In this document: positions 15,721-34,142 of the stretch, piece after piece | How the letters are laid out: every line of letters starts with the position of its first letter | Position numbering within the stretch: the stretch's first letter is position 1 | From: Xanthomonas cucurbitae | Lineage (GTDB): Bacteria > Pseudomonadota > Gammaproteobacteria > Xanthomonadales > Xanthomonadaceae | DNA length: 64,000 nt | Direction: 5' to 3' | Assembly: GCF_002939885.1 (NCBI RefSeq) | Contig: NZ_MDED01000001.1 | Span: 62,001 to 126,000 of the forward strand | Made by a program: the position numbers and the translations under genes | The notes under the pieces: model-generated | Database searches by the model: none | Told to the model about the DNA's origin: nothing | Seen by the model: the letters and a program-made list of their open reading frames with translations, nothing else

Positions 15721-17445
15721 TCATGCGCCGCAGCGCGTTGCCGCCACTGCGGCCTTGCCCTGGGGCGGCACGCCGGGCGCATGACCCAGCGCAACCGTGC
15801 GATCAGCCACGGCGGCCAGGCTGGTACGGTGCGACACCACCACCAAGGCGGTCTGCGGCAACCGCTGCCGCAGCGTTACCAGGACCTGCTGTTCGGCCTC
15901 TGCATCCAGGGCGCTGGTTGCCTCGTCCAGCACCGCCAGGGTCGGGGCGCGTAGCAATACCTGCGCCAGCAGCAGGCGTTGCAATTCACCGCCGGACAGG
16001 CGGCCCTCCGGGCCATGGATGACAGTCTCCAGCCCCTGCCCTTCGCGTTGCAGCCGTGCGCTCAGCCCGACATCGCACAACACGTCCCACATGCGGGCAT
16101 CGGACGTCCCCGGCAGCGCCCAGTCCAGGCAATCGCGCACGCTGCGTTGCCAGGGCCGCACCGCCTGGCTGACGTAGGCGCTATGGCGGATCAGCTTTCG
16201 ATACGCCGCAAAGTCCAGCCGGCGCCCGCTCATGTGCGCTTCGAACAGCAGCGGCGGCGTTTGCCCGGACAGGACATCCATCAGACTGCTCTTGCCGATG
16301 CCCGATGGGCCTACCACCAAGGTCATTTGCCCTGCCACCAGCAGCAAGCCGTCGATCGCCAGCGCGGGCAGCGGCGGTGCCAGATCGATGCGCTCCAGGT
16401 GCAGAACGGCCGGCAGTCGTGTGGCTTCCTCGTCGGGCGCATGCGTGCCCGCCGTGCCCAGATCCACGTAACGCCGCCACAACTGCAGGGCCGGCCAGGC
16501 CGATCGCAACTGCTGCACGCTTTGCCGCGTGGTAATCAGATACGGCAGCAGGCGGCCGAGCAACAGACTGACCGTGATGAGCGCCGCGCGGTCGGCACCC
16601 TGCCACAGGTTGGCGAGCACCAGAATGCCGGCGATGGCCGCCACGGCAGTCAGCTCCAGCACCATCCGGCTGGCCGCCACCAGTTCCTGCTGCTGCGCGT
16701 AGCCTTGCCCCAGGCGGGTAGACATGCGCTCGTACTGCCGGGTTTCCACTGCTTCGCGCTGAAACGATCGCACATGGCGCAGACGGCGCGGAAAGTCCTC
16801 GCTCAACCAGAACAGCTGGGTCATGTCGGCCACGTAGCCACGGCTGATGCGCGCCTGCGCATCGCTGCTGGAGATGCGCAGGCCCAGCCAGGCCAGCAGT
16901 ACAAGCAGCGGTGTCGCAAGCAGCAGCTCAGGCACGATCAAGACCGCCACGCACACGCTGACCAGTGCAGTGATGCCGGCCACCAGCAGTTGCAACACCG
17001 CACTGAAGCCCTGCGTTGCAATTTCGATGTTGTAGGTCAGCACATTGGCGATCTCCGCCGAACTGGCGCCCGACAAGGCCGGTAGCGGCGCATCCATCAG
17101 CGCGGCGTGGACGCGGTGGCGCAAGCCGATCGCGTAGCGGCTGGTCAACCGCGCAGCCAGCCGCGCGCCGTACCAACGCAGCAGCGCGAACAGCACGCTG
17201 ACGACCACGAACAGCCCGGCCTGCATCGGCAGGCCACCTGGCAAGGCCAGCCGATAGCCGGCCAGCTGCACGCTGTGCCCGGGTTGCACCAGCGGCAACA
17301 GGCACACCGCCACGATGCTGCCGACGAAGGCGGCCGCCAGCGACAACACCACATACGCCGCGACGGCCGGCCGGTCCGCCGGCACCAGCGTCTGGACGAA
17401 GCTGTGCAGCACCACCCGCATCCGCTTGCGTGCGTCCGGATCCAT
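15721..17445 (-). CDS. ABC exporter, fused membrane and ATP-binding domains
   Basis: A 574-residue half-transporter. Residues 1-320 hold about six membrane helices, and residues about 350-570 are the nucleotide-binding domain. Walker A is GPSGIGKSS near residue 380, the signature LSGGE is near 485, Walker B is TLAVLDEATSALD near 505, and VVSHRTS is the H-loop. It resembles export-type half transporters of the lipid or peptide export class; there is no C39 peptidase domain. ATG 17445 is chosen because the upstream in-frame residues are low-quality. It starts 55 bases past the HPr-kinase-like gene on the same strand, so the two are an operon. Confidence 0.9.
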   Translation of the reverse strand: MDPDARKRMRVVLHSFVQTLVPADRPAVAAYVVLSLAAAFVGSIVAVCLLPLVQPGHSVQLAGYRLALPGGLPMQAGLFVVVSVLFALLRWYGARLAARLTSRYAIGLRHRVHAALMDAPLPALSGASSAEIANVLTYNIEIATQGFSAVLQLLVAGITALVSVCVAVLIVPELLLATPLLVLLAWLGLRISSSDAQARISRGYVADMTQLFWLSEDFPRRLRHVRSFQREAVETRQYERMSTRLGQGYAQQQELVAASRMVLELTAVAAIAGILVLANLWQGADRAALITVSLLLGRLLPYLITTRQSVQQLRSAWPALQLWRRYVDLGTAGTHAPDEEATRLPAVLHLERIDLAPPLPALAIDGLLLVAGQMTLVVGPSGIGKSSLMDVLSGQTPPLLFEAHMSGRRLDFAAYRKLIRHSAYVSQAVRPWQRSVRDCLDWALPGTSDARMWDVLCDVGLSARLQREGQGLETVIHGPEGRLSGGELQRLLLAQVLLRAPTLAVLDEATSALDAEAEQQVLVTLRQRLPQTALVVVSHRTSLAAVADRTVALGHAPGVPPQGKAAVAATRCGA

Positions 17446-17500
17446 CAACCGCTCACATCGCCTGTGCCGACACGCGCATGCTGCCGGTTGCCTGGCGGCC

Positions 17501-18565
17501 TCATCGCAGCACCTGCAGCAAGGCATCCAGCGAGGCTTGCGGATGCGGGCCGCGGTGCAGGGTGAACATGCCGATGCGCTGCACCTGGGCCACAAAGCGT
17601 TGCCACCCCGGCTGGCCGGCGGCATAAGGCTGATCGCGCTGCAGGCACTCGGCGATCTGCGCAGCCGGCACCGGCACCAGCGCGTTGGCCGAAGTGCTGG
17701 CCGGCAACTTGGACAGCATCACCACGGCACACAGCTGCAAGGGCGTGGGTGCCAGCGTGGCATGGCCATGACGGATGTCGACTTCGAACTTTTCCACGCC
17801 ACTGCGGCGACGAATGGTCGGTGACGCGCGAACCCATGCATGCGTTTGCGCATCGACCAGACCCAACGCCTCGGGCCGCAGATGCAGGAAGTTGGCAACA
17901 CCGGTGGTCAGCAGGCTGTCCGGTGCCACGAAGACACCATCTTCGGCGATGAACTCCAGCCCGTGCAGCAGGCTGTGCAACGCCAGCGTGGATTTGCCCG
18001 CGCCGCTGGCGCCGAGCAACAGCACGCTGCGGCCGCGTCGGCCCACGCAGGCGCCATGCAGCGGCACCAGCCCCGTGCCACGCGCGGCCAGCAGGAATAC
18101 CGCAAACTCGATCAGCTCGTAGCGCACATGATACGCATGCGCCAGCATGTCCTCGGAGACCACCAGCATGGCGCGGCGCTCCGAGATCGACAGCATCAGA
18201 TGGTTGCAGGCATCCATCACGCCACAGACCAGCCCACCCACCGCGTGCGTGCGCACCGGCGGCGGCTCGGCGGCCACATTGCCCGACGCCCGCAGCACCA
18301 GGTCCAGGGTGAGATGGAACTGCGGCGCACCGGGCAGATGGTGCGCCGGCAAGCCGGCATAGGCGGCATCGACCAGGGCCAGCAGTGCCGGGCTGTCGCT
18401 ATGAAAGTGGAACAGCGCACCGAGGATCTGCCGCTGCACACTCAAAGCGCGCGAGCGTTGCTCGCCGAACGGGTCCGCCGCCACGGCGACTGGCGCGGTG
18501 TCGCCTGCACGCTCGCCCAGCGGCGGGTATTGCGCCATCGCAGCCGACTGCGGCATGCCTGTCAT
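17501..18565 (-). CDS. HPr kinase-like (HprK-related) P-loop protein
   Basis: A protein of about 354 residues with a C-terminal HPr-kinase-like fold. GACVGRRGRSVLLLGASGAG followed by KST is the P-loop near residue 185. LHGLEFIAEDGVFV follows, matching the acidic strand of the HprK family. The first 150 residues have no recognisable domain. True HPr kinases phosphorylate a serine on HPr; relatives in lasso-peptide and exosortase-type polysaccharide clusters act on other substrates. No HPr, PqqD-like or PTS gene is near, so the substrate is unknown. The start is uncertain: ATG at 18565, 18556 and 18538 are all possible, none with a good ribosome site. It is divergent from the radical SAM gene and in operon with the ABC exporter. 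Confidence 0.82.
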   Translation of the reverse strand: MTGMPQSAAMAQYPPLGERAGDTAPVAVAADPFGEQRSRALSVQRQILGALFHFHSDSPALLALVDAAYAGLPAHHLPGAPQFHLTLDLVLRASGNVAAEPPPVRTHAVGGLVCGVMDACNHLMLSISERRAMLVVSEDMLAHAYHVRYELIEFAVFLLAARGTGLVPLHGACVGRRGRSVLLLGASGAGKSTLALHSLLHGLEFIAEDGVFVAPDSLLTTGVANFLHLRPEALGLVDAQTHAWVRASPTIRRRSGVEKFEVDIRHGHATLAPTPLQLCAVVMLSKLPASTSANALVPVPAAQIAECLQRDQPYAAGQPGWQRFVAQVQRIGMFTLHRGPHPQASLDALLQVLR

Positions 18566-18765
18566 CCATTGCACCAATCAGCCGGTGTGTGCCGATTGCG
18601 CGCGCAAAGGTTGCATCACTGCACGCGATGGACAGGCACCACCGTGCGCATCGCGACAGCGCAACCAAAAACACCTACAGGCGCACCTACTGCCGAGCCG
18701 AATGCCGGTGTCTGCGCACGCCGCCGTTGCGCGCCACCCGGCGACAGAACGAGAGCCTTGTGCAG

Positions 18766-20256
18766 ATGCTAAAGATCCAGGTCAGTCATTCGTATTTCCT
18801 GCGTTACGACCCCAAACAATGGGAACGCGGCAAGCCGTACCCCCCGCTGGCCACCTTGCAGATCGCGGCATTGCTGCGCGAACGCGGGCATGTCCTGAGC
18901 CTGTTCGACGCCATGCTGGCCGACGATGTGCAGGACTACACCGGTGCGCTGCACGCTGCGCAGCCGGAGCTGGTGGTGTTCTACGAGGACAATTTCAACT
19001 TCCTCACCAAGATGTGCCTGAGCCGGATGCGCGAGGCGGCCTGCCGCATGATCGCTCAGGCGCGCGCAGCTGGCTGCCGGGTGCTGGTGGCCGGTTCCGA
19101 TGCATCCGACAATCCGGACGTCTTCCTGGCCGCAGGCGCGCATGCGGTGCTGATCGGCGAAGGCATCGCACCGTTGCTGACGTTGATCGAGCGCCTCGAG
19201 GCCGACCCGCAACTGGAAGTTCCCACCTGGCTGGCAGACGTACCGCGCATCGCCACCAGCCAGCCCGGCGAGGCGCGCACGCATCCCGGCGCGCAACCAC
19301 CGGACGCGCGCCTGAGCGGGCTGCCGGCCTGGGATCTGGTGGATATGGCGCGCTACCGGCAGTTCTGGAAGGAACGGCACGGCTACTTCAGCCTCAACAT
19401 GGCCGCCTCGCGCGGCTGCCCGTTCCGCTGCAACTGGTGCGCCAAGCCGATCTGGGGCAACCACTATGCCCGTCGCGGTGCCGAGGACGTGGCGGCCGAG
19501 GTGATCCACCTCAAGCGCAGTTTCCAGCCGGATCATCTGTGGATGGCCGACGACATCTTCGGCTTCCATATCGACTGGGTGGAGACCTTCGCGCAACGGC
19601 TGGACGACGCCGATGGCGTCATCCCGTTCACCATCCAGACCCGTGCCGACCTGGCCAGCGACCGCATGGCGGCGGCCCTGGCACGCGCCGGGTGCGCCGA
19701 AGCCTGGATCGGCGCGGAAAGCGGCAGCCAGCGCATCCTGGACAAGATGACCAAGGGGACCGAGGTGGCCGAGGTGATCGCGGCACGCCAACGACTGGGG
19801 GCGCACGGTATCCGCGTGGGCTTCTTCATCCAGCTGGGCTATCTGGGCGAGGAGCTGGACGACATCCTGGCCACGCGCGCGTTGGTGACGCAGGCCAACC
19901 CGGACATCATCGGCGTCAGCGTCTCCTATCCCCTGCCCGGCACCAAATTTTACCAAGAGGTGAAGAATCAACTGGGCGGCAAGACGCACTGGCAGGACAG
20001 CGACGACCTGGCGATGATGTTCCATGGTGCCTACGACTCGGAGTTCTACCGCAGCGTGCGCGACCTGTTGCACACCCAGGTCGATCTGCAGCAGGCACGC
20101 GCGCGCATGAGCGCCGATGCGCTTGCGCAGGCCTGCGAGCAGTTGGAAGCGCGCTGGTCTGCGTTGATCGCCTCCGAACACCTGCACCGCACCGAGCCGC
20201 TGGTCAGCCCAGCCACGCGACCGCCGCGACAGCTGACGACCGTGCTGGTCGGCTGA
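18766..20256 (+). CDS. B12-binding-type radical SAM protein
   Basis: A 496-residue protein. Residues 1-150 look like a cobalamin-binding Rossmann domain (PPLATLQIAALLRERGHVLS, LVAGSDASDNPDVFLAAGAH). The radical SAM core follows with AASRGCPFRCNWCAKP, the CxxxCxxC cluster site near residue 220, then DHLWMADDIFGFHIDW and AEAWIGAESGSQRILDKMTK. Class members carry out methylations, ring contractions or other difficult C-C chemistry. No substrate can be deduced. GTG 18760 is an alternative start; GAGAG lies just before it. It is followed 110 bases later by the nucleotidyltransferase-like gene on the same strand. Confidence 0.88.
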   Translation: MLKIQVSHSYFLRYDPKQWERGKPYPPLATLQIAALLRERGHVLSLFDAMLADDVQDYTGALHAAQPELVVFYEDNFNFLTKMCLSRMREAACRMIAQARAAGCRVLVAGSDASDNPDVFLAAGAHAVLIGEGIAPLLTLIERLEADPQLEVPTWLADVPRIATSQPGEARTHPGAQPPDARLSGLPAWDLVDMARYRQFWKERHGYFSLNMAASRGCPFRCNWCAKPIWGNHYARRGAEDVAAEVIHLKRSFQPDHLWMADDIFGFHIDWVETFAQRLDDADGVIPFTIQTRADLASDRMAAALARAGCAEAWIGAESGSQRILDKMTKGTEVAEVIAARQRLGAHGIRVGFFIQLGYLGEELDDILATRALVTQANPDIIGVSVSYPLPGTKFYQEVKNQLGGKTHWQDSDDLAMMFHGAYDSEFYRSVRDLLHTQVDLQQARARMSADALAQACEQLEARWSALIASEHLHRTEPLVSPATRPPRQLTTVLVG

Positions 20257-20365
20257 GCATGCCGGGCGCGCGTAACCGGCGCCCGGCAACCGGCGCACAG
20301 ATCCAGCCCAGCCAGGCATCTCGCAGCAGCCTTGTCACCCCTCTTCGATTCGTCGGGACACCCCC

Positions 20366-21580
20366 ATGCAGCCTTCCCTCCGCGCCATCAAACATGGTCT
20401 GCGCACCACCACCGAACGGCTCGCGCACGAGCTGGCGCAACCCGGCGGCGACGCGCCACGCTGGGATCGCTTGCAATGGCAGCTGGCCGCCGCCGCCGCC
20501 GCTGCGCATGGCGTCTCGCCGCTGTTGCAGCGACGCTCGCTATGGCAGGACGCCGACTGGACCGACTTCCTGAGCGAACAACGCCGCCATGTCGAAGACC
20601 GGCATCGGCGCATCGCGCTGCTGCTGACCCGCATCGACAGTGCCGCGCGTAGCGCAGGCATCGCGCTGGTAGGCTTGAAAGGCACCGCGCTGCATCGGCT
20701 GGGGGTGTACCTGCCCGGCGACCGCCCGATGGCCGATATCGATTTGCTGGTGGCCCCGGACGATGCGCCGGCGGCCGCCGAACTGCTGTGCGCGCTCGGC
20801 TACGTGAACGCATTCGAACAGTGGAAGCACCAGGTGTTCACGCCGGTGGGCGGCGGTGCGGTCGCCGGCCTGGGTGAGCACCGCGACGCACCGATCAACA
20901 TCGAACTGCACACCCGCATCCAGGAACGCCTGCCGGTGCACAGCGTGGATATCACTGCACATATCCAGCCCGAGCACCCGCAGCCGGGCCTGAACTCCTA
21001 TCCCAGCATCGGCGCGCTGATGTGCCATCTGCTATTGCATGCCGCCGGCGGCATCTGCCACCGCAGTATCCGGCTGATGCATCTGCACGACCTTGCACTG
21101 CTGGCCACACGCATGGGACCACGCGACTGGGAACAGCTGTGGGAAGATCCTGCCGTGACACCGTGGTGGGCGTTGCCACCGCTGTTGCTGCTGCAGCGTT
21201 ACTACCGCGCCGTGGTGCCCGCGGAAGTGATGATGCGCCTGCACGCACACTGCCCACGCCTGCTGCGGCTGCGTGCAGACCGCCAGACGCTCACCGCCGC
21301 ATCGTGCTCCAACCTGTGGCTGTCCGCGCTGCCGGGCATCGCCTGGTGCGGCTCGCTGGCCGAGGCGCGGCAGTATCTGCGTCAACGTGTCGCGCCATCG
21401 GCCGAAAGCCGCAAGGAGCGCGCGGACATGTTGCAGACCCAGTTGTGGCTGCAGGATCAACCGTGGGTGCGCCAGACCCAGGCGCGCCGCCTGATGACGC
21501 GCCTGACACGGCCGGTACCGCGCACCGACATGCTCTACGTGGTTCGCGCGGCGCTGACGGGGTATCTGCGGCCGGCGTAA
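20366..21580 (+). CDS. Uncharacterised nucleotidyltransferase (NTP_transf_5 type)
   Basis: A 404-residue cytoplasmic protein. The family's diagnostic stretch is GIALVGLKGTALHRLGVYLP followed by GDRPMADIDLLV (residues about 95-130), a DxD-type nucleotidyltransferase active site. The domain occurs in lasso-peptide clusters and in HPr-kinase-related polysaccharide loci, where its substrate is mostly unknown. Here it follows the radical SAM gene and lies near an HPr-kinase-like gene, a pairing that recurs in known clusters. It ends convergently with the glycosyltransferase operon. The family assignment is strong and the role is open. Confidence 0.82.
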   Translation: MQPSLRAIKHGLRTTTERLAHELAQPGGDAPRWDRLQWQLAAAAAAAHGVSPLLQRRSLWQDADWTDFLSEQRRHVEDRHRRIALLLTRIDSAARSAGIALVGLKGTALHRLGVYLPGDRPMADIDLLVAPDDAPAAAELLCALGYVNAFEQWKHQVFTPVGGGAVAGLGEHRDAPINIELHTRIQERLPVHSVDITAHIQPEHPQPGLNSYPSIGALMCHLLLHAAGGICHRSIRLMHLHDLALLATRMGPRDWEQLWEDPAVTPWWALPPLLLLQRYYRAVVPAEVMMRLHAHCPRLLRLRADRQTLTAASCSNLWLSALPGIAWCGSLAEARQYLRQRVAPSAESRKERADMLQTQLWLQDQPWVRQTQARRLMTRLTRPVPRTDMLYVVRAALTGYLRPA

Positions 21581-21792
21581 CGCCTGGCACGGGACAGCGC
21601 ACGAAACCTGCCGGGCCATCGCTGCCTGGCCGCCGCACATCTTCCAGCGCGGGCGCCGTGCTTCCTGCCGTACCGCGCGGGGTGCGGCCTGCGGCATCGG
21701 CGCATCCCTTGCGCATGCTGCGCTGCAAAGGATGACCGGGAATGACGGGGACGAATCGTCGATCAGCGGCAGGGTGACAGCAGTTCGCGCAC

Positions 21793-22905
21793 TCAGCGCA
21801 GCGGACGCCGCTCGCACAGCTGCCGATAGAGTCGTTCGAACGCATGCGTGGTGAAGCCGGCATCCTCGCGTACCGCCCGGCATTGCGCTGCCCAGGCCAG
21901 GCGCAGGCGCAACTCGTCGTCGGCGATGACCTGACGGATCGCCTCGGCCATGCCGGCCCAGTCGCCCGGCGGCACCGCCAGTGCCGCGACCGGAGCCCAT
22001 TCCAGCAGATGCCCGACGCCGGTGCCGACCGTCGGCACGCCGGCGACCGCCGCCTCCAGCAGCACCATCGGCCCGGCTTCGTGCAGCGACGAATGCACCA
22101 GCAGATCGGCCGCCAGCATGAGCGGGCGCAGCTCCCGCTGCGTCTTGAACCCCAAGAAGCGTACCTGTTGCTGCAGGCCCAGCTGCTGCACCAGCCGCTG
22201 GATCGCGCCATCCAGGGTGTCGACACCCACCATGTCCAGCGTGAAGGCCACCCCGGCGCGATTGAGCGCGGCCATTGCCTGCAGCAACGTGGCCTGGTCC
22301 TTGACCGGGTTGAGGCTGGCGACGTGCAACAGCCGCGCGACACCGCCGGCGCGCGCGCGCGGTGGCGCCACCGGCCATGCGCGCAGATCCACACCCAGCG
22401 GCACCCGCTGTGCGCCAATGCCCAGCGCCTGCAGCGAGGCGATGATGGGCGCACTGGCCGCCGTCACACAGTCGGCCATGCGCAGGGTCAGCGCCTCGCG
22501 CGCGCGTCCGCGCCACTTGCGACGGCCGCCATAGCCGATGGCATGCAGCGCCACCAGTTCGCCACCGGCGATGTGCACCATGCTGGGCCGACGCAGCAAC
22601 GTGGCGGCAGCCACCGCCACCAGGCTGCAGTAGCCGGAGAAGATCGCCTGGATCACATCGAATGGCGCGCGCCCATGTTCACGGCCGATGGCGGTGATCG
22701 CCCGCCACCGCGTGCGCTGCTCGCCAATGTTGTGGATGGTGGCGCCCCGCAACATCCAGCTGGCCGGCAAGGGCTCCTGGTGCAGGACGAACACGTGCAC
22801 CTCATGGTGGCGCGCCAAGCCTTCGATGAGCGTCAATATCACCGGGATCACTCGCCGGTCGCCGCTGCGGTCCACGCCACCGGGCACCACCAGGGCCAGC
22901 TTCAT
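21793..22905 (-). CDS. GT4-family glycosyltransferase (a)
   Basis: A 370-residue GT-B glycosyltransferase. MKLALVVPGGVDRSGDRRVI is the N-terminal glycine-rich loop, VARLLHVASLNPVKDQATLL opens the donor-binding domain, and SSLHEAGPMVLLEAAVAGVP is the conserved E-x7-E-type motif near residue 285. The family transfers sugars from nucleotide-sugars with retention, acting at the cytoplasmic face of the membrane. Its ATG overlaps the stop of the upstream glycosyltransferase (ATGA), so the two are translationally coupled. It is the last gene of the minus-strand run. Acceptor and donor are unknown. Confidence 0.9.
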   Translation of the reverse strand: MKLALVVPGGVDRSGDRRVIPVILTLIEGLARHHEVHVFVLHQEPLPASWMLRGATIHNIGEQRTRWRAITAIGREHGRAPFDVIQAIFSGYCSLVAVAAATLLRRPSMVHIAGGELVALHAIGYGGRRKWRGRAREALTLRMADCVTAASAPIIASLQALGIGAQRVPLGVDLRAWPVAPPRARAGGVARLLHVASLNPVKDQATLLQAMAALNRAGVAFTLDMVGVDTLDGAIQRLVQQLGLQQQVRFLGFKTQRELRPLMLAADLLVHSSLHEAGPMVLLEAAVAGVPTVGTGVGHLLEWAPVAALAVPPGDWAGMAEAIRQVIADDELRLRLAWAAQCRAVREDAGFTTHAFERLYRQLCERRPLR

Positions 22906-24032
22906 GCGCGATCGCCGGGCACGCGCTGCAGCAACCGTGCATACGCCTGTGCCCAGCGTTGCCCCACAGCCACAAATGACAGACGCGCATCGAAATGCGC
23001 GCGGACCTGCACCCGCCTGGGCGGTTGCCGCGCGACCCGCAACAACAGGCTCGCCAACGCCTGCGCATCGCCCACCGGCCACAGCTCGCCCATCGCGCCG
23101 GTATCGCTGAGCGCGCGAAAGGCCGGGATATCGGTGAGCAAGGGCAGCGTGCCACAGGCATAGGCTTCCAGGGCGGCGTAGCCACAGCTTTCGGTGTGGC
23201 TGGCAGACACGAACAGATCGCTGGCACGCATCAGTTCCTGCACCTGCGCATGCGCGACCTTGCCGAGCAGGTGAACGCGACCGGCCAGCAGCGGATCCTC
23301 GCGCAGACGCTGGCGGACCTGCTCCAGCAAGGGTGCCTGGTCGAATACGCACCAGAGCCGCGCGTCGGGCAACTGGCGCACGACGGTGGCGAACGCCTCC
23401 AGCACGCACAGCGGATCCTTGGCCGGGCTCAGGTGCCCGACCCACAGCACGCAGGGCTCGCCATGCAGCTGCGTATGCGCGCGCGCCGCCAGCCGCTCGC
23501 CAGCCGTGAAGCGGCTACTGGATTCGGGAATCGCAAATAGCGGCGTGTCTGCACGAAACAGCCGCGCGCGCTGGAACGGATGCGCCAGCGCCAACGACGT
23601 AAACGCGATACCGGCCACGGCGCGGTACCGGCCACGCCACAGCCATCGGCTCCACCAGCGCGGTGGTCGATTGGCATGGTCCTGCAGCAGGATCGGCGGC
23701 GTCGGCAGCAGCCGTGCCAGCCGCTGTGCATCGGTGGCAAATTCCAGCCCATGCACATGGATGACGTCGCAGTCGATCTGCCGCAGCAGCGTTGCCAGGG
23801 TTTCGGCGCGCACCTTGCTGCCACGCGCACCCAGATCGAGAAAGTGGTAATGCACGCCGCCGCGCACGCATTGCTGCGCGCGCCGGGAGGCCTGGATCAC
23901 GGTGACGCGCACGCCGGCACTGGCCACCGCCTCGGCGATGTCGGCCAGCGAGGGCCACTGCGCGAATACTTCTTCCACGCTTGCACCGTCCGGGGTGACG
24001 ACCAGGTTGAGCTGGGCGACATGCAGGCTCAT
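22902..24032 (-). CDS. GT4-family glycosyltransferase (b)
   Basis: A 376-residue GT-B glycosyltransferase starting MSLHVAQLNLVVTPDGASVE. It has DVIHVHGLEFATDAQRLARL, VLWVGHLSPAKDPLCVLEAF and the late donor-site segment SASHTESCGYAALEAYACGT. It lies upstream of glycosyltransferase (a) and overlaps it by four bases. A 133-base gap separates it from the upstream methyltransferase gene, with no obvious gene or terminator in it. The likely role is adding a sugar to a lipid-linked or small-molecule acceptor made by the same run; this is inferred from context. Confidence 0.9.
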   Translation of the reverse strand: MSLHVAQLNLVVTPDGASVEEVFAQWPSLADIAEAVASAGVRVTVIQASRRAQQCVRGGVHYHFLDLGARGSKVRAETLATLLRQIDCDVIHVHGLEFATDAQRLARLLPTPPILLQDHANRPPRWWSRWLWRGRYRAVAGIAFTSLALAHPFQRARLFRADTPLFAIPESSSRFTAGERLAARAHTQLHGEPCVLWVGHLSPAKDPLCVLEAFATVVRQLPDARLWCVFDQAPLLEQVRQRLREDPLLAGRVHLLGKVAHAQVQELMRASDLFVSASHTESCGYAALEAYACGTLPLLTDIPAFRALSDTGAMGELWPVGDAQALASLLLRVARQPPRRVQVRAHFDARLSFVAVGQRWAQAYARLLQRVPGDRA

Positions 24033-24165
24033 GCAACGCCGCTCGCAGCCAACTGGCGCACGCGGTGCAGGCAACACGGCGCACGCACGCCTCGCGAGGG
24101 TGCACTCGCCTGGCTGCCTGCGCACCGTGCACGGCCGCCAGGCACGGCATGGAACGCGGCCCTGG

Positions 24166-24864
24166 TCACGCGATGCGCCGCAGCCGCAACACCAACGCCA
24201 CCGGCACCTGCAGCGCGGTGCGGTCGAAGCGCGCGCCGGCGGGAATGTCGGCCGGGTCCAGCATGGGTTCGACCACCGCCTCGATGGCGAATCCCAGCGC
24301 GGTGCACGCGCAGTGCCAGTCACTGTAGAGATGTTGGGTATGGCGCACGGCGTAACGCTCGCCGCCAGCCTTGAAGTCACGGCGCCAGCCCAGCGCATGA
24401 CCGATCGGATGCACGTCGCTGCACAACACGATGCCATTGATGCGCGTGACGCGATGCAACTCTTCCAACGCCGGCCAGAGCTGCTCCAGATGCCCGACCA
24501 CCAGCCCGCAGATGCTCAGGTCGGCGACGGCGTCGCCCAGCGGAAGCTGGTCCAGGCGCCCCTGGCGCAGGCTGATGCGCTCGGCTGGCCATTGCTGTGT
24601 CAGTTCCGTCTGCGCACGCTGCAGCATCTGCGGTGACAGGTCCACGCCGGTCACATGCCAGGCGCCACGTTGCAAGGCATGCAGCATGTAGCGGCCGCTG
24701 CCGCAGCCGGCATCCACCACATGCTGGCAATGCAGGCTGGCCGGCAGCAGCCCAAGCATGGCGCGTTGCTCGGCCAGCATCACCGGATTGTGTGCATGCG
24801 GCGGATAGCTCTGTGCCCAGAGCGCGTAAGCCGCCGCTGGCTCCAGTAGCGCGACCTCGCTCAC
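24166..24864 (-). CDS. Class I SAM-dependent methyltransferase (a)
   Basis: A 232-residue protein with the Rossmann methyltransferase fold: HVVDAGCGSGRYMLHALQRG (motif I) near residue 50, VTGVDLSPQMLQRAQTEL, then GDAVADLSICGLVVGHLEQL (motif II) and NGIVLCSDVHP. The start is GTG at 24864, overlapping the amidohydrolase stop (GTGA). Methyl acceptor unknown. UbiE-like methyltransferases of this size act on small molecules, and context suggests a sugar or lipid intermediate of the same cluster. Confidence 0.88.
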   Translation of the reverse strand: MSEVALLEPAAAYALWAQSYPPHAHNPVMLAEQRAMLGLLPASLHCQHVVDAGCGSGRYMLHALQRGAWHVTGVDLSPQMLQRAQTELTQQWPAERISLRQGRLDQLPLGDAVADLSICGLVVGHLEQLWPALEELHRVTRINGIVLCSDVHPIGHALGWRRDFKAGGERYAVRHTQHLYSDWHCACTALGFAIEAVVEPMLDPADIPAGARFDRTALQVPVALVLRLRRIA

Positions 24865-26093
24865 GATGCGGCCCCCATCGCGGCCCTGGCCGCGTGCGGC
24901 GCGCGCGTTGCAGCCGGCACGCAGTGCAGCCCGGGCTCCAACGCCAGCACGGCCGGGTCTGCGAGCGCGGCGTCCAGCAACTTGGGCCGGCCATCCAGCA
25001 CCACCGAGACGGTACGCAGCCCGGCTGCCTCGAACCACGGGGCGAAATCCGGGTCGGCAATGCGCGGTCTACCGTCGCGGATCACCGCGCGTAGTTCGTT
25101 GCGTTCGCAGCCAACGATGCTGGCGGCGGGCTCGCCACCGCGGTCGCGCACGATGACCAGATCGGCCACTGCCCCCGGCGCGATGCGTCCGCGTGCCGGC
25201 AGACGCAGGATGCGCGCGCTGTGGTCGGTGACCAGGCCCAGCAACAGATCTGCGGCCAGACCGCTGTCGGCAGCGATACGCAGTTCCTCCAGCAGATCGC
25301 GTGCACCACTGATGCGCGAGTCGCTGCCGAGTGCCAGCCGCCCGGCCATGCACAGCCGCCATGGATCGAGCGTACGGCCCAGCAGTGCCAGGTTGCTGGA
25401 CGGGCACCACACCACCGCTGCACCCCGCGCGATGATCCGCTCGACATCCTGCTCGCCCATTCCCACCCCATGGATCGCCACGGTGTTGGACGCAAGACAG
25501 CCGAGCCGATCGAGTTCGTCCAGCTCGGCACCCGCCACCGCATCGGTCCCCTCGGCCAGATGGATCATCCATGGATGGGCGGACGGGGTGGCGGCGAAGC
25601 TGCCCTGCACCGGGGGACCGTAACCGGTCCAGCCCAGCGCATAACTCCATCCGAAGTCGCGCAGCAATCCAACCGGAAAGCCTGGCTCGTCCAGGGTGGC
25701 GTGCCAGGGGTCGTGCTGCGCCACGCAGGTCACCCCGGCCAGCAGATTCTTCAGGCCGCCATGGCGCAGGCGCACCGCCTTGGGGATGCGCAGCGCGGCC
25801 GCCACGTCGGGATGCCGGAAGTGCGCCTGGAACGCCTCGATCCACGCGTAGCTGTTCGGAAAAGGCGCACCCTGCGGCAACGGGGGCACGCAGTTCACCT
25901 GCAGGTGATCGTGGGCGTTTATCAATCCTGGCAGCAGCACGTGGCCACGCAGATCCAGCCGCAGGGTGCCGGTGCCGAGCGTGCCACCGAAGCGGCCCGC
26001 ACGCAGATGCAGCGGCGCGTGCGACGGACCGGCCAGGGTCAGCGAGCGCGCGCCCTGCAGGCAGACATCGGCCATGGACATCGACATGTTCAC
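24861..26093 (-). CDS. Amidohydrolase/deaminase-like metal-dependent hydrolase
   Basis: A 410-residue protein of the amidohydrolase superfamily. LPGLINAHDHLQVN has the HxH metal ligands near residue 60, NTVAIHGVGMGEQDVERI carries a ligand histidine, and GRLALGSDSRISGARDLLEE has the metal-site aspartate. The flanks form the beta-sandwich typical of cytosine deaminase/chlorohydrolase relatives. The expected reaction is hydrolytic removal of an amine or halide from a ring compound; the substrate is unknown. The start is GTG at 26093, beside the upstream methyltransferase stop. It overlaps the downstream methyltransferase start by four bases. A hydrolase of this type is unusual in a glycan operon. 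Confidence 0.87.
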   Translation of the reverse strand: MNMSMSMADVCLQGARSLTLAGPSHAPLHLRAGRFGGTLGTGTLRLDLRGHVLLPGLINAHDHLQVNCVPPLPQGAPFPNSYAWIEAFQAHFRHPDVAAALRIPKAVRLRHGGLKNLLAGVTCVAQHDPWHATLDEPGFPVGLLRDFGWSYALGWTGYGPPVQGSFAATPSAHPWMIHLAEGTDAVAGAELDELDRLGCLASNTVAIHGVGMGEQDVERIIARGAAVVWCPSSNLALLGRTLDPWRLCMAGRLALGSDSRISGARDLLEELRIAADSGLAADLLLGLVTDHSARILRLPARGRIAPGAVADLVIVRDRGGEPAASIVGCERNELRAVIRDGRPRIADPDFAPWFEAAGLRTVSVVLDGRPKLLDAALADPAVLALEPGLHCVPAATRAPHAARAAMGAAS

Positions 26094-26936
26094 TCAGCGC
26101 TTGCGCATCACGATCAAGAAGTGGTCGCCCATCTCGCGCAAAAGGGGCCATCCGCCCAGACGGTCATCCAGCCACCCCAGGCCTGCCGACAGGCGCGGGT
26201 TGCGTTCGCAAACATCCACCAGGTACGGGGGCGGCAGGAACAGGCTCAATGCGCGGTAGCTTTCCAGCGCGAAATGCGGCGCGAACGCCCGGTAAAACTC
26301 GCGCGGCAGGTGGTACCAGGTCCAGATGGTATGGCCGTTCATACCGACCGCCGTCGCTCCCCGGGCAGCCCGCACCGCCGCGCGCTTGAAGCGTCCGCGC
26401 AGTGCATAGTGGCCCACTTCCCACGGGCAGATGCGCCCGATCACCGAAAACACCAGGCAGCCATCGGCACGCAGCAGGCGCGCGCACTGCGCCGCCACCG
26501 CCGGCAGATCCGGCGCGCAATTGAGCGGGCCGAAGTTGGAATACATGCCATCGAACGGACCTGCCAGCTGATCCAGTTGCTGGATGCCCACGTGCGCGGC
26601 GGCCAGCCGCGTTTCCAGTCCCAGCGCAACGGCACGCTCACGGGTGCGTTCGACCATGGCCGGCGACCAGTCGGTGGCCAGCACACGGTAGCCGCGACGG
26701 GCGAATTCCCCGGCATCCAGGCCAGTACCGCACCCCAGATCCACCAGCGAAGAGCCGACCGGCAGCTGCGCGGCCAGCGTGTCCCACAAGGTGGTGCGCA
26801 TCCGCTGGATCAGCGCATTGTTTCCGCGCGGGCCATCGTAGTCGGGCGCCACGCTGTCGAAGGCGCGCTGGGTTTCCAGCAACTGCTCCGGCGCAACCGA
26901 GCCGCCGCGTGCCGCATGTTCACTGGCCAACGCCAT
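26094..26936 (-). CDS. Class I SAM-dependent methyltransferase (b)
   Basis: A 280-residue protein. SSLVDLGCGTGLDAGEFARR (motif I) near residue 65, VLATDWSPAMVERTRERA and FDGMYSNFGPLNCAPDLPAV identify a methyltransferase of the UbiE/Methyltransf_25 type. The start at 26936 is well supported: AGGAAGGGAG lies just upstream. It opens the second half of the minus-strand run, with a 270-base gap to the Wzz-like gene upstream. It is probably the first gene of its own operon, unless transcription reads through. Substrate unknown. Confidence 0.88.
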   Translation of the reverse strand: MALASEHAARGGSVAPEQLLETQRAFDSVAPDYDGPRGNNALIQRMRTTLWDTLAAQLPVGSSLVDLGCGTGLDAGEFARRGYRVLATDWSPAMVERTRERAVALGLETRLAAAHVGIQQLDQLAGPFDGMYSNFGPLNCAPDLPAVAAQCARLLRADGCLVFSVIGRICPWEVGHYALRGRFKRAAVRAARGATAVGMNGHTIWTWYHLPREFYRAFAPHFALESYRALSLFLPPPYLVDVCERNPRLSAGLGWLDDRLGGWPLLREMGDHFLIVMRKR

Positions 26937-27206
26937 GCACTCCCTTCCTCATCCATCTTGCTGACTTCACTGCACTCTCCAGGCGCGGTGCCGCCACTGC
27001 GGCATCGCTCGATAGGCAGGTATGTGCCACCTGCGGCCGGTTTGGTTGCAGCGCTGCGGCACCCATCCGTTGGACGACGATCGTGCGACGACCGGGCAAC
27101 CATCGGCGCCCCTCGCCCAGCGCGCGCCGGCCGCAGAACACGCGTACCCAGAGACGTTGCCTCGTATCCCACCGTCTTTACACACGGCATCGTCTGGCGC
27201 AGGAAA

Positions 27207-28061
27207 TCAGGCGGTGACGCTTCCGACACCGACCCGCGCGCGCCGACGCCAGGCATTGCGCATCACCGCCGCCAGCACACCCAGCCCCACCCCGGCGAGC
27301 AGGCCGGCCGCGCCGACCACGATCGCGTTCGGAAATGCCCGCTGCTCGGGCACGTACAACGGCCATGCCAGCGAGGTCTGGTAGGTGTAGCGCGCGGTGA
27401 GGCGTGCGATCAGATCGTCGCGCTCGGCCTTGATCGCGCGGATGGTGGTATTGCTGTCGGTCAGCAACACCCCTGCCAGCACCTGTCCAGGCGTGGCGGT
27501 AGCGCCACCGGTCACGGCCTGCAACTGCCGCTGCAGCTGCGCGCGATTGAGCAGGGCCACGCGCAGGTCTTCGTTCAGGCCCTGCAGGCGGGTCTGCGCC
27601 AGCGCCAGCGCCGCCGTATTGGTCTGGCCATGCAGGGTCTGCAGCTGGGTCAGTGTCGCCGTTGCCAGCACGCGCGCCTGCTGCGGCGACGCGGCGCGAA
27701 TGGTGATGCCGATCAGGTTGGCATACGGGTCCGGATCCGGCTTCAGGCTGCCACGGTACAACTGCGCGGCACGGCTCTTGAGCGGCACCCCGGCCTGGCG
27801 CAACACCGCATCCTGGAACAGCCGGGTCTTCATGCGATCGATCACCCGTTGGAACGGTTCGACCTTGGGATCGCGCCCGGCCGGCGTCGGGCCGATCTCG
27901 CCCACCTGGATCCAGGCCGTGGCTTCCCATTGCGGCTGGGCCACGCGCAGGAACGCAAAGGTCATGCCCAGCACCAGCACCAGGGCGGCCAACGCCCAAC
28001 GCCACTCGCGACGCAGGATGCGCCACAGGTCGATCAGGTAGATTTCATCGTGTTGGGTCAT
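27207..28061 (-). CDS. Polysaccharide co-polymerase (Wzz-like chain-length determinant)
   Basis: A 284-residue inner-membrane protein with the Wzz architecture: short cytoplasmic N-terminus (MTQHDEIYLIDLWRILRREW), TM1 about residues 22-41 (LVLVLGMTFAFLRV), a long periplasmic coiled domain and TM2 near residues 250-270 (VVGAAGLLAGVGLGVL). It lacks a cytoplasmic tyrosine kinase domain. Such proteins set the chain length of polymer made by the Wzy pathway. It is the last gene of the tight block with the flippase and polymerase-like genes, 43 bases past the polymerase gene. Confidence 0.85.
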   Translation of the reverse strand: MTQHDEIYLIDLWRILRREWRWALAALVLVLGMTFAFLRVAQPQWEATAWIQVGEIGPTPAGRDPKVEPFQRVIDRMKTRLFQDAVLRQAGVPLKSRAAQLYRGSLKPDPDPYANLIGITIRAASPQQARVLATATLTQLQTLHGQTNTAALALAQTRLQGLNEDLRVALLNRAQLQRQLQAVTGGATATPGQVLAGVLLTDSNTTIRAIKAERDDLIARLTARYTYQTSLAWPLYVPEQRAFPNAIVVGAAGLLAGVGLGVLAAVMRNAWRRRARVGVGSVTA

Positions 28062-28104
28062 GGTGCGCAGGCTCGAAGACGGAATGGACGGAGAGTGGGC
28101 GTGG

Positions 28105-29238
28105 TCATGCGGCAGACCGCTGTGCCGTGTGGCGGTTCGGCAGCAGCAACGTGCAGGCGTGCAGCACCAGGCACAGCGCAATGAAGCCGAAGTTGGTCCA
28201 GGTGAATGCCTGTGGCGCAAACGGCGACATCAGGCAGGCGTAGGCCAGGCGCAAGAAGATCAGCACGTGGAAGATCGACAACGACCCATTGAGCCGGCGC
28301 ACGCTCCACACCAGCCCGGCATACAGGGCCAGCAGCGCGATCACCGCGCCCGGTGCGCCCCAGGCCATCAGGAACGGAAAGAATTCGGTGCCCACGTTGA
28401 TATTGGGCGCATCCAGCGGGATGCTGGTCCCGGCAGTGGCGATCGACCCGGTGAACGGCACGATCTGGTTGACCAAAAAGCTCGCGTTGACGTAGCCCTT
28501 TGCCAGGATCGCGCTGAAGTTGTAGGGCCCGGCACTGATATACAACAATAGCCACTGCACGCCCTGTGGCATGGCCCGGTAGAACGCACCGAACGGCAGC
28601 GCAACGCTGGCCAGGGAGCCGGAGCGCAACGCACCCAGCACCGAGAACACCGCGCCACCGGCCACCACCAACAGACCGATGCGCTTCCACGGCAGCTTGC
28701 GTCCTGGATCGCGCCGCAGCAGCATCACCAGCACGAAGGAGAACAGCCCGGCAAAGATGCGGTTGCGGTCGATCACCATGATCGGGAACACGAATCCCAG
28801 CACCACCATCGCCGTACGCAGCCCCCGGTGCCGCACGCACAGCAATGCGATCGGCGGCAGGATCCAGCACATATTGGAGACGTGCCGCACATGCGAGCGC
28901 AATGGACTCAAGCTCGCGTATGAAGACGGATCACTGAACAACGGAATCGGGAACAGCAGCAGGTCCACCATGCAGAACGCCGTCACCCCCGCCGCCAGCG
29001 CCAGCGCCAGAAACGCATCGCGCGTGCCGGCATAGTGGTAGTTGCGGAAGCGCTCGGCGGGAGGCAACCTTATACGCAGTAGAGTATCGAGAATGGGCGT
29101 CAACAGCGAGATAACGACCAACAATGCAACACCTTCGAGATAACCGACTGGCAACTCATAAATCAACCAGGTCACCGCGCAGCTGACCACCGTTGCTGGA
29201 AGCAGATAGAACGCAGGCCATCGCAAACATTCAGTCAT
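28105..29238 (-). CDS. Polytopic membrane protein, candidate O-unit polymerase (Wzy-like)
   Basis: A 377-residue protein with about ten hydrophobic segments (for instance VVLGFVFPIMVIDRNRIFAG and a long C-terminal series). It has no close recognisable motif. Wzy polymerases are so diverse that they are usually called by topology and position. It sits between a GT2 glycosyltransferase and a Wzz-like protein in a locus that has a flippase. The ATG at 29238 overlaps the end of the glycosyltransferase gene by eight bases. Polymerase is the best guess; an oligosaccharide ligase or membrane acyltransferase is an alternative. Confidence 0.7.
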   Translation of the reverse strand: MTECLRWPAFYLLPATVVSCAVTWLIYELPVGYLEGVALLVVISLLTPILDTLLRIRLPPAERFRNYHYAGTRDAFLALALAAGVTAFCMVDLLLFPIPLFSDPSSYASLSPLRSHVRHVSNMCWILPPIALLCVRHRGLRTAMVVLGFVFPIMVIDRNRIFAGLFSFVLVMLLRRDPGRKLPWKRIGLLVVAGGAVFSVLGALRSGSLASVALPFGAFYRAMPQGVQWLLLYISAGPYNFSAILAKGYVNASFLVNQIVPFTGSIATAGTSIPLDAPNINVGTEFFPFLMAWGAPGAVIALLALYAGLVWSVRRLNGSLSIFHVLIFLRLAYACLMSPFAPQAFTWTNFGFIALCLVLHACTLLLPNRHTAQRSAA

Positions 29239-30184
29239 GCACCGAAACTCCACGCATCAGACCTGATCGCGCCGCTACCGCCCAGAATCGCTTTAATGTG
29301 TAAAGCGTCATCCAGTAAACCACCTGAAGAGGCCGCCGCTGCAAGAATGCAATCTTTGCAGCAATGTAATCGGCTTGCGCATGCAACAGGCTCCGTTCCG
29401 GACTCCCGAACAGACCGCGATGACGCAGCGCGACCATCCTGGACTCGGAAAGGTTAGCAACCCGTCTTTGCACATCGCGGGTTTTACTGGCATTACTCCC
29501 GTGCAAGCGATAGGCACATACTGTAATGTCCACGAATGCCAGCGCGTCGCGCGAGACCAGCCTGAGAAAGAAATCCCAGTCCTCAATGCGTAAGGTTTCG
29601 TCCCAGGAGATGCGCGCATCAAAATCGCTAGCCTTGAGCATAGTGACTGCGCCGCTGACTGCCCATTGACTGATGACGGCGCGACGGATCCCGACGTTGG
29701 ACAGATAGGGCTGCTTCCGTACGCCATGCAGCCCCACCATCGCACTGGCGTGCAGCAACCGACCATCCTGATCCACGACACACGCATCGCCAATCACAGC
29801 GCTCTTGGAGGGATTCGCAATGAGCACCGCAACCTGCACGGCTAATCCTCCAGGGATCAGATAATCGTCACTAGCCAGAACACGCAAAAACTGGCCCTGC
29901 GCGCGCCGCGCAAGCTCGTTCAAAGTCGCTGCAACACCTCGATTTCCGCGCCGCAGGAAATTCACAGCAATATCGCCACCACGCGCTGCGATCCATTGCT
30001 CTATCACGGCACCAGTCTCATCATTCGAACCATCATCAATGATGACGATCTCCTTCTCCGGATAAGGCTCTTCCAGAACACTATCCAGACAATTTGCAAC
30101 AAACGCTGCATGATTGAAAGCAGGAATCAGAACCGAGACCAGAGGCCAGTGCACCAGTGCTTGATGGCAAGACAAATCATTCAT
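29231..30184 (-). CDS. GT2-family glycosyltransferase
   Basis: A 317-residue GT-A glycosyltransferase: VSVLIPAFNHAAFVANCLDS at the N-terminus, IVIIDDGSNDETGAVIEQWI with the first aspartates, and FLRVLASDDYLIPGGL holding the DxD-equivalent SDD near residue 107. The family makes inverting transfers from nucleotide-sugars. Its start (ATG 30184) overlaps the flippase stop (ATGA). GC content here is visibly below the rest of the window. It is the only GT2 in the cluster, so other sugars of the repeat unit must come from the GT4 genes or from outside the window. Confidence 0.9.
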   Translation of the reverse strand: MNDLSCHQALVHWPLVSVLIPAFNHAAFVANCLDSVLEEPYPEKEIVIIDDGSNDETGAVIEQWIAARGGDIAVNFLRRGNRGVAATLNELARRAQGQFLRVLASDDYLIPGGLAVQVAVLIANPSKSAVIGDACVVDQDGRLLHASAMVGLHGVRKQPYLSNVGIRRAVISQWAVSGAVTMLKASDFDARISWDETLRIEDWDFFLRLVSRDALAFVDITVCAYRLHGSNASKTRDVQRRVANLSESRMVALRHRGLFGSPERSLLHAQADYIAAKIAFLQRRPLQVVYWMTLYTLKRFWAVAARSGLMRGVSVHD

Positions 30185-31437
30185 TCCAGCCGCACCAGGT
30201 GACGCCGCACCACTACAAGATTGAACAGAAAGTACAATACGTAATTGACAATGAAAGCGTACACTGCCCCGATCACGCCAAAGTTTGCACTCATAATAAA
30301 TACGAGAAAAATGTAACTTACAGCAAACACGCACTCCGAAATGACGAAAACACGCGTCATCGCCTTGGCCAACATTACATACGAAAGTAAAAAAGCTGCA
30401 ATCTTTACCACATCACCAAACAGTTGCGCCCCATACAAGGGTACAGCCGCAGAAAATTCGGCATCGAAAAGCAACCAAGTCACCCACTCACGGCATATAT
30501 AAACCGCGAGTGCAGCAAGGATCACCGACGGCATCAGATAACAATAAGCCCCCCACAGTTCGCGCGTGATGGCATTACGTCCGTGCAAAGACGCCAGCCT
30601 GGGGAGGTAGTACACGTTGATGACGGTAGTGAAGAACAGCAGATAGGCATCGGACACGCGACTGACAGCCTGCCAGTATCCGACTTGATGCCAGCCGAAG
30701 CCTTCAGCCAGGTGATCCCTCACCAACATGGTAGCCAGTTGCGGCACCAGCGTGGATGTCAGGGTCATGATCGAAAATGTGGCCAGCTTACGCACCATTA
30801 TTGGGTCGTACCGGACACGCAGCATTGCGTTGGAAAAGTACGCACTGCGCGAGAGCACCAGCGCGCCTGACAGCAACCAAAACAGCTGACCCGACACCCA
30901 CGCTATCAGCACACCGTGCAGGTGCCAGCGACCGGATGCGTACGCAACCAGCAATACACTCAGTACAGAGCCGCCCACCTGCACGATCGCCAAGCCACGG
31001 AAATCGCTGAAGCCGTTTATCACTGCCAGGATATAGTTCACCAAGGCGATACCCATCTGCGCCAGGGCAAGTGCGCAGATCACTGGCTGATAACTGCGAT
31101 CTGCAAATAGCCAGTGGGCCAGTGGACCACTGAACAGCAGAACCAACATCGAGATGACTACCGAAGCGCATCCCGTGTACCAGAGGGACGTCCCGAACAG
31201 ACGCCCTAGCGCTGCTGCATCATTGCGATACTCTGCGACGTACTTTACGACTCCCGTTGCAATACCGCCCCCGGCCAACACCGCCAGCACCGACATCAGC
31301 GCTAGGAACTGACCAAGCCGCCCGACGCCTTCAGGCCCTGCATAAAGCGCGACAAGCTTGAGCACCACTAACGCCGCAAGCAACTTAGTGAGCGTCGCAA
31401 TGCTGGTATAAACGCTGCTACGCAGCACATTCATCAC
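30181..31437 (-). CDS. wzx: Lipid-linked oligosaccharide flippase (Wzx family)
   Basis: A 418-residue protein with about twelve membrane helices of the MATE/MOP flippase superfamily, nearest in appearance to WzxE: MMNVLRSSVYTSIATLTKLL at the start, then LVALYAGPEGVGRLGQFLAL and GIATGVVKYVAEYRNDAAAL. It moves undecaprenyl-linked oligosaccharides from the cytoplasmic to the periplasmic face. It overlaps the aminotransferase stop by four bases and the next gene by four bases, so it is translationally coupled on both sides. The line 30241-30300 has 25 G or C in 60, far below the GC-rich norm of the window, which suggests acquired DNA. Confidence 0.88.
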   Translation of the reverse strand: MMNVLRSSVYTSIATLTKLLAALVVLKLVALYAGPEGVGRLGQFLALMSVLAVLAGGGIATGVVKYVAEYRNDAAALGRLFGTSLWYTGCASVVISMLVLLFSGPLAHWLFADRSYQPVICALALAQMGIALVNYILAVINGFSDFRGLAIVQVGGSVLSVLLVAYASGRWHLHGVLIAWVSGQLFWLLSGALVLSRSAYFSNAMLRVRYDPIMVRKLATFSIMTLTSTLVPQLATMLVRDHLAEGFGWHQVGYWQAVSRVSDAYLLFFTTVINVYYLPRLASLHGRNAITRELWGAYCYLMPSVILAALAVYICREWVTWLLFDAEFSAAVPLYGAQLFGDVVKIAAFLLSYVMLAKAMTRVFVISECVFAVSYIFLVFIMSANFGVIGAVYAFIVNYVLYFLFNLVVVRRHLVRLE

Positions 31438-32717: not shown

Positions 32718-32719
32718 GA

Positions 32720-33142: not shown

Positions 33143-33449
33143 GATCGGTGAGGCGTTAGCGCTGACTGCACATAGTGCGACATGGCTGAGTGCGCCACGA
33201 TGCGGGAAAGGTTGCACGGCCCCGCAACCCACGAAGCGGTGCACGTAAAAGCGCAGCAGCAGACCAATATCCCCCTCCAATCTCTCGACGACACCTGCGG
33301 GCATCACGAGGATGCAACCTTTCGCAGGCATTGCCGCACATATCCATGCACGTTCACCTGGCCGCTGTCCGGCCGGCGTGGGGAGCCAGGCCTGGCCGCG
33401 CATCGCGCGGCCGGAACCAACGATCACCACCGGTGAGGACACCGACGCA
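33143..33449. promoter_or_regulatory. Divergent intergenic region between fdtA and cytochrome b561
   Basis: About 307 bases without a supportable gene. It must carry the promoters for the glycan run (minus) and for the heme genes (plus). I cannot identify a specific promoter or operator motif. Confidence 0.5.
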
Positions 33450-34070: not shown

Positions 34071-34142
34071 GCGCCAGCGCCTCCCGTTCTCCCCGTTCGT
34101 TTCCACACCGTCGAAACCCGCACCGTCGAACAAGGACTTTAC

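Follow-up and report, generated by a model that had tools for sequence, protein, structure and literature searches.

A conserved kinase, radical SAM and nucleotidyltransferase module in a probable surface-glycan locus of Xanthomonas and its relatives

Homologues of HPr kinase phosphorylate the C-terminal serine of lasso-peptide precursors, and the nucleotidyltransferase of the pseudomycoidin cluster places one or two hexoses on the phosphate, according to the accessible part of PMC8498205. A similar enzyme pair is encoded in a 64,000-nucleotide stretch of Xanthomonas cucurbitae DNA (contig NZ_MDED01000001.1, positions 62,001 to 126,000; hereafter the window), which lies on contig C1 of a 4.42 Mb genome assembly of 181 contigs. 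The initial annotation of this stretch had proposed an undescribed pathway for a methylated, glycosylated, possibly phosphorylated and exported product, encoded by a nine-gene cluster ending at 27206. The whole unit in fact runs from about 15721 to 33142, with an ABC exporter at its left edge and fdtA at its right. With modest confidence we lean towards reading the nine genes as the tailoring arm of one surface-glycan locus. The proposed product fits the parts, but the pathway does not stand alone; its genes are the left-hand two thirds of an extended Wzx/Wzy-type glycan locus, and it is better put as an undescribed tailoring module inside that locus.

The lasso phosphorylation and glycosylation genes (the paeninodin-type kinase and pseudomycoidin, as given in the part of PMC8498205 at hand) likewise combine an HprK-like kinase, a nucleotidyltransferase and an ABC exporter. 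The present locus differs in having no precursor, no B and C maturation proteins and no PqqD, and in having a glycan setting, a radical S-adenosylmethionine (SAM) enzyme, family 4 glycosyltransferases (GT4) and methyltransferases. The enterobacterial common antigen locus likewise contains a WzxE-like flippase (290.2 bits for the flippase found here), Wzz and DegT and is spread over an order. By comparison, the present locus has FdtA in place of the 4-amino-6-deoxygalactose enzymes, no WzyE match, a flippase under the WzxE cut-off of 325 bits and an extra kinase/radical SAM module, and its HprK occurs in just 70 of the 348 genomes sampled from the order. The PqqD-HprK-NTP_transf_5 cassette (TIGR04352, HprK_rel_A), which we take to be the system named HPr-rel-A, likewise pairs an HprK-like protein with NTP_transf_5. 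Here, in contrast, the HprK gene is divergent from the NTP_transf_5 gene (NTP5) with a radical SAM gene between them, no PqqD-like open reading frame (ORF) accompanies them, and the kinase scores 32.2 of the 200 bits set for TIGR04352.

NTP_transf_5 itself is common, being found in 129 of 349 sampled Pseudomonadota genomes. Among 20 loci picked by hand from these matches, an HprK-like ORF was labelled in 16, and an ORF of 90-116 residues lies just upstream in 7 (L185-L189, L192, L195). The Pfam PqqD model is weak for such cassettes: it scored over its cut-off in just 2 of these 7 PqqD-like ORFs, fell short of it in 1 and gave no match in the other 4. A protein of 165-241 residues with a twin-arginine-like start, judged by eye, recurs upstream of the HprK-NTP_transf_5 cassettes L185, L186, L187, L193 and L195; in L193 it is directly upstream of HprK and could be the cassette substrate.

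Full-text literature searches, with most subscription papers outside reach, found no description of the locus. It is not described in the accessible parts of PMC11467524 and PMC12826051, and the cytidylyltransferase of PMC12275187, as far as that paper was available, is unrelated to it. A known lasso, PEP-CTERM or lipopolysaccharide-core locus of the same content had been named as what would overturn the proposal of an undescribed pathway; a recognizable glycan locus did emerge as the setting, but no described locus with this content. Both the enzyme pair and the glycan locus are thus of known kinds, and their combination is undescribed as far as the literature was searched.

All nine genes named by family in the initial annotation were found, at 15721-26936. 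The ABC exporter and the HprK-like kinase are read leftward, the radical SAM enzyme and NTP5 rightward, and the remainder of the unit leftward in a tight run. The exporter has fused transmembrane and ATPase domains (15721-17445, start set at the ATG at 17445; PF00005 67 bits, over cut-off, and PF00664 below cut-off, scored on a longer ORF to 17625), and no gene to its left is common to the 18 loci listed. The kinase (17501-18577, true start probably 18565) stays under all its family cut-offs (PF07475 25.0 of 33.3 bits; TIGR04355 35.6 and TIGR04352 32.2 bits, both of 200), and AlphaFold and Foldseek give it a PEPCK/HprK fold. Its P-loop GxxGxGKST and E212-D213 are invariant in the 11 sequences aligned. 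In a sequence search of the PDB, HPr kinase was matched at E 2.7e-4, ranked under designed repeat proteins that are chance matches. NTP5 (20366-21580; PF14907 94.1 bits) found no match in the corresponding search.

Between the two lies the first B12-type radical SAM enzyme (18766-20256; PF04055 53.2 bits, over cut-off, on a longer ORF from 18385; PF02310 below cut-off). Its C218, C222 and C225 (CxxxCxxC) are invariant (n=11), and the closest solved structures are 9ccb and AprD4 6fd2. A second such protein (rSAM2) sits between the second GT4 gene and the first methyltransferase gene in many relatives (see below). Both radical SAM proteins match HpnJ, AprD4 and TIGR04072, among other families, but at 33-96 bits these matches stay under the cut-offs (360-577.6) and assign no equivalog; the scan of rSAM2 (L049:2401) started 20 residues late.

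At the left end of the leftward run lie GT4a (21793-22905; PF00534 87.9 bits on a longer ORF, 21793-23445) and GT4b (22902-24032; PF00534 72.1 bits on a longer ORF, 22902-24437), which overlap by 4 bases. They are followed by the SAM-dependent methyltransferase MTa (24166-24864; PF08241 74.1 bits on a longer ORF, 24166-25038), the amidohydrolase AmH (24861-26093; PF01979 56.3 bits) and a second SAM-dependent methyltransferase, MTb (26094-26936; PF13649 57.9 bits). AmH is weakly nearest to TRZ/ATZ-type deaminases. It scores 53.7 of 532 bits against the 8-oxoguanine deaminase model and had no PDB match at 1e-8; H61, H63, H178, H208 and D258 are invariant (n=11).

Beyond MTb the run continues with genes of a glycan locus. 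A Wzz-like chain-length protein (27207-28064, start placed by homologue, with the ORF extending to 28220; PF02706 39.6 bits, cut-off 25.5) is followed by a probable Wzy polymerase (28105-29238), so called from its position and 7 hydrophobic segments in a simple scan; the frame 28105-29253 has no Pfam or NCBIfam match, including none to WzyE. The next genes encode a family 2 glycosyltransferase (GT2, 29231-30184; PF00535 86.3 bits, ORF to 30334) and a WzxE-like Wzx flippase (30181-31434; PF01943 33.6 bits, cut-off 28.2; NF011679 290.2 bits, cut-off 325), and the locus thus has both the Wzx flippase and the Wzz expected of the Wzx/Wzy type. A DegT-type sugar aminotransferase (31434-32717, homology start near 32546; PF01041 357 bits, 79% identical to that of X. 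dyei) and an FdtA-like 3,4-ketoisomerase (32720-33142; PF05523 151.3 bits, 86% to X. dyei) complete the unit. The ORF h328 (32843-33151, plus strand), which is antisense to fdtA and had masked it, was dismissed as a gene. FdtA implies a 3-amino, not a 4-amino, 6-deoxyhexose, and FdtA, DegT and an acetyltransferase form the gene set for dTDP-3-acetamido-3,6-dideoxyhexose. We predict a 3-amino-3,6-dideoxyhexose in the surface glycan.

In X. dyei (L140), three extra genes lie between DegT and FdtA, encoding a GNAT-type acyltransferase (PF13480), a glycosidase-like protein (judged by eye; no Pfam match) and a NeuD-type acetyltransferase over its cut-off; none of the three has a match in the window. 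Third-position guanine-plus-cytosine (GC) content falls to 0.64 in the flippase gene and 0.61 in the DegT gene (window 30181-32717), against about 0.8 around them. Because of this low GC content and the absence of the three X. dyei genes, the right end looks recently exchanged. After FdtA (window 33312-41002) come genes for a cytochrome b561, a CxxCH protein, a cytochrome c, an extracytoplasmic function sigma factor and the ccm set; cytochrome b561 and/or the CxxCH protein are also found beyond FdtA in several Dyella, Luteibacter and Rhodanobacter loci.

Gene order and strand are kept across Xanthomonas, Luteibacter, Dyella, Rhodanobacter, Frateuria, Lysobacter and Pseudoxanthomonas. The closest named relatives in a scan with the radical SAM enzyme (135 relatives, best 80 retained) are Xanthomonas species, at no more than 90% identity. 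We compared 26 classical Xanthomonas loci (L060-L084 and L131) with 46 further loci (L085-L130, of which L120 is labelled only Gammaproteobacteria); a separate set, L040-L059, overlaps L060-L139 (for example L054/L114, L053/L095 and L055/L129), and the sets are not independent. The nine genes, Wzz and the probable Wzy were found on the expected strand by tblastn in 26 of 26 classical Xanthomonas loci, also in the same order. A few genes appear there in two pieces (ABC in L064, NTP5 and GT4a in L078, the radical SAM gene in L084), which may be frameshifts or sequencing errors.

Counts in the further loci refer to those with room for the gene by a rule of our own and are lower bounds, as inserts can push genes past the fetched end. 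HprK and NTP5 were each matched in 45/45 and ABC in 43/44, followed by GT4a and GT4b (40/43 each), MTa (36/42), AmH (35/42), MTb (33/42), and Wzz and Wzy (25/41 each); the Luteimonas record L126 stops at GT4a. Of the further loci, 38 of the 42 with room have rSAM2; none of the 26 classical Xanthomonas loci does. A search of our own genome with rSAM2 of L049 was empty, though run without a positive control, and L050 has by eye only an apparent remnant of it. Matches to the major facilitator superfamily (MFS), luciferase-like and pyridoxamine-oxidase-like genes on the left side were seen in classical Xanthomonas only. The median gaps in Xanthomonas are tiny at MTa-AmH (-1 base), AmH-MTb (3) and GT4a-GT4b (11), which makes co-transcription likely there; the longer ones are ABC-HprK (108), HprK-rSAM (202), rSAM-NTP5 (61), NTP5-GT4a (295) and MTb-Wzz (293), and all others are at most 139.

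The two arms of the nine-gene set are inherited together. HprK was detected in 32 of 35 genomes of the genus, in 33 of 297 sampled genomes of the family (4 of 54 genera) and in 10 of 94 genera of the order sample. AmH, the sixth gene beyond HprK and in the other arm, occurs in exactly the same 33 family genomes and in none besides; these are kin and do not count as 33 independent events. Two genomes of the same genus (G003, G018) lack both genes, and in two other genera (g3, g16) a few members carry both while some sampled sisters (G036, G049) have neither. The claim that the nine genes form one co-occurring set is borne out by these shared genomes and by synteny that holds across genera, and the nine genes are a genuine unit. 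Among 369 sampled genomes of the class, HprK was found in our own genome alone, and the range outside Lysobacterales therefore rests on a few metagenome-assembled genomes (MAGs). One record labelled Eremiobacteraeota (L138) has a radical SAM protein 71% identical to that of the window, possibly through mis-binning.

In gammaproteobacterial MAG loci (L132-L137 and L139) the gene order is broken, and the radical SAM and HprK genes stay together in 7 of 7; NTP5 is present in 6 of 7, being fragmentary in L133 and L137. GT4a stands alongside HprK and the radical SAM gene in L132, L134 and L139, and MTb (55-58%) is found in L132, L133, L134 and L137. After the trio in L136 come a GT2 gene and genes for transaldolase, SIS, NTP_transferase and GHMP kinase proteins, the latter a set that we read as of the nucleoside diphosphate-heptose type. 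L135 has genes similar by eye to this set and a HAD protein; in L133 there is a polysaccharide deacetylase, and a GT2-type protein that scores 28.5 bits (cut-off 27.5). A Lysobacterales MAG (L128) carries ABC-HprK-rSAM-NTP5 without the GT4 arm, beside an initiating transferase (PF02397), a GT2 and a Wzt-type ABC protein. Thus, the nucleus adjoins glycan genes in further, differing settings in some distant relatives.

No peptide substrate was found at the locus. ORFs of 20-120 residues in the gaps, with in-frame tails of neighbouring genes removed, were compared separately inside the 26 Xanthomonas and inside the 46 further loci. The proposed check for a short conserved ORF near the genes in relatives gave none that is widely shared: the widest family in the 46 further loci recurs in 6 others and lies to the left of ABC or of HprK. 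The Xanthomonas families extend to 24 further loci left of ABC, where they fall in the adjacent MFS region, to 17 in the MTb-Wzz gap and to 10 in the HprK-rSAM gap, and their counterparts at the corresponding positions in the other 46 loci extend to at most 3 further loci, save left of ABC (6). PqqD is not next to HprK, the single PqqD match of the genome being on contig C12, and the lasso B-type domain Transglut_core3 is absent from the locus, its sole genome match being on C34. The protein concerned (L202:1489-2241) suggests a separate lasso-peptide locus in the genome. No asparagine-synthetase-like lasso C protein is among the Pfam matches of the locus; a genome-wide search for it was not made. 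The absence of lasso B and C proteins, a precursor and PqqD, as noted initially, therefore holds at the locus, though the genome does contain the C12 and C34 matches. The exosortase model PF09721 had no match in the genome, with a control positive in 1 of 14 genomes. We accordingly ruled out a lasso-peptide locus (B and C proteins and precursor not in the locus), an exosortase locus (no PF09721 match) and a PqqD cassette (HprK short of the TIGR04352 cut-off, PqqD on C12).

Taken together, the set conserved in Xanthomonas and its relatives is probably responsible for a cell-surface sugar polymer with unusual decorations, a surface glycan that would span the order. This reading draws on gene families, conserved residues of active-site type, synteny, co-occurrence, the lack of a linked peptide precursor and the glycan setting; from these we infer every substrate and the order of the steps. 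DegT and FdtA, with dTDP-sugar enzymes of the host, would yield the 3-amino-3,6-dideoxyhexose. Undecaprenyl phosphate would be primed by an initiating sugar transferase whose gene lies elsewhere, and GT2, GT4a and GT4b would assemble the repeat unit. MTa and MTb would methylate the unit and the radical SAM enzyme may modify an unreactive carbon. The HprK-like kinase would phosphorylate a hydroxyl of the repeat unit or of a small carrier, and the phosphate so formed could be capped by NTP5 with a nucleotidyl or glycosyl group. The amidohydrolase might de-acylate or deaminate an intermediate, or clear 5'-deoxyadenosine or S-adenosylhomocysteine. The WzxE-like protein would then flip the unit and Wzy and Wzz polymerize it, and the ABC exporter may transport either a tailored portion or a compound that serves as substrate for a step in the periplasm. 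A bolder version, a glycan-directed analogue of peptide phosphoglycosylation in which the kinase phosphorylates a lipid-linked sugar instead of a protein or peptide, NTP5 caps the phosphate and B12-type radical SAM tailoring is added, giving a 'Lysobacterales common antigen' with a new kind of phosphodiester decoration, is speculative and in our view rather unlikely.

Several observations weigh against a glycan function. The part hardest to account for is the ABC exporter, which would be redundant if Wzx flips the unit. No initiating sugar transferase is encoded in the locus of the window, the rest of the genome not having been searched for one. The probable Wzy was located in 10 of 12 chosen genomes searched whole and went unfound in the other 2; among the further loci, 16 of the 41 that nominally have room gave no match to Wzz and Wzy, in part because inserts displace these genes beyond the fetched end. 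No other glycan genes were seen near the trio in L132, L134 and L137, except GT4a in L132 and L134 (L134 and L137 are short). In the literature consulted, as far as it was accessible, peptides are the substrates of the HprK and nucleotidyltransferase precedents, and no homologue tested on a glycan substrate was met. In addition, small-molecule-type genes are inserted within the locus of some relatives.

The NTP5-GT4a gap accepts varied inserts. Lysobacter enzymogenes (L114:12700-14200 and L054:5068-6602, contigs of equal length with identical proteins) has a methyltransferase and a GTP cyclohydrolase II (PF00925 173.8 bits) there, as if a pteridine or azapteridine branch had been added. The 7-kb insert of Xanthomonas sp. 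GPE 39 (L095:13085-19423) encodes a tryptophan 2,3-dioxygenase, two aminotransferases, a short-chain dehydrogenase/reductase, a flavin adenine dinucleotide enzyme and a glyoxalase, a separate small-molecule set. The same gap holds an autotransporter in Dyella nitratireducens (L107:12962-16414) and an RHS-repeat protein in Luteibacter yeojuensis (L118:13169-17482). A methyltransferase (tested in L096) with a partner protein is found to the left of ABC in Dyella (two loci, L096:5169-6732 and L109:5464-7150) and, by eye, in the NTP5-GT4a gap of a Rhodanobacter (L123:12742-14377); the two appear to be a mobile accessory pair.

The alternative that survives best, although we hold it to be unlikely, is a small-molecule natural-product pathway that merely neighbours a polysaccharide locus, its product being a phosphorylated, methylated glycoside exported by the ABC protein. 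Its main support is the retention of the dedicated exporter in nearly all further loci with room, and the Lysobacter enzymogenes and GPE 39 inserts and the quartet without GT4s in L128 are consistent with it. However, Wzz and the probable Wzy are syntenic with the set in every classical Xanthomonas locus and in 25 of the 41 further loci, and the L128 quartet and the L136 trio themselves adjoin other glycan genes. A coincidental pairing, through vertical descent, of an ABC-HprK-rSAM-NTP5 module with an unrelated glycan operon from GT4a to FdtA would account for the opposite strands, the variable inserts at the junction and the quartet found without the rest in L128, but HprK on the left and AmH on the right are jointly present or jointly absent across all 297 family genomes, and GT4a or MTb accompanies the nucleus in L132, L133, L134, L137 and L139; we regard such a pairing as improbable. 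A lasso-like pathway for a ribosomally synthesized and modified peptide, with its precursor encoded elsewhere and modified by HprK and NTP5, has a precedent in pseudomycoidin, a lasso peptide phosphorylated and glycosylated by a kinase and a nucleotidyltransferase (PMC8498205, in the part available), and a lasso-B-type protein on C34 in its favour, but is very improbable given the lack of a widely shared small ORF in the gaps, the sole PqqD and Transglut_core3 matches on C12 and C34 and the low TIGR04352 score of the kinase.

The locus is real, conserved and undescribed as far as we searched, less exotic than a stand-alone pathway and more so than an ordinary polysaccharide cluster. In the literature consulted, as far as accessible, the HprK and NTP_transf_5 pair has been tested only on lasso peptides despite the wide spread of NTP_transf_5, and a peptide-free, co-inherited pair in a surface-glycan locus offers a defined system for asking whether such enzymes act on glycans. 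The marker of the locus also turns up in many records of Dyella, Luteibacter and Rhodanobacter, so that plant-associated and soil bacteria would have the locus product in common at their surface, with possible relevance to phage receptors and plant recognition.

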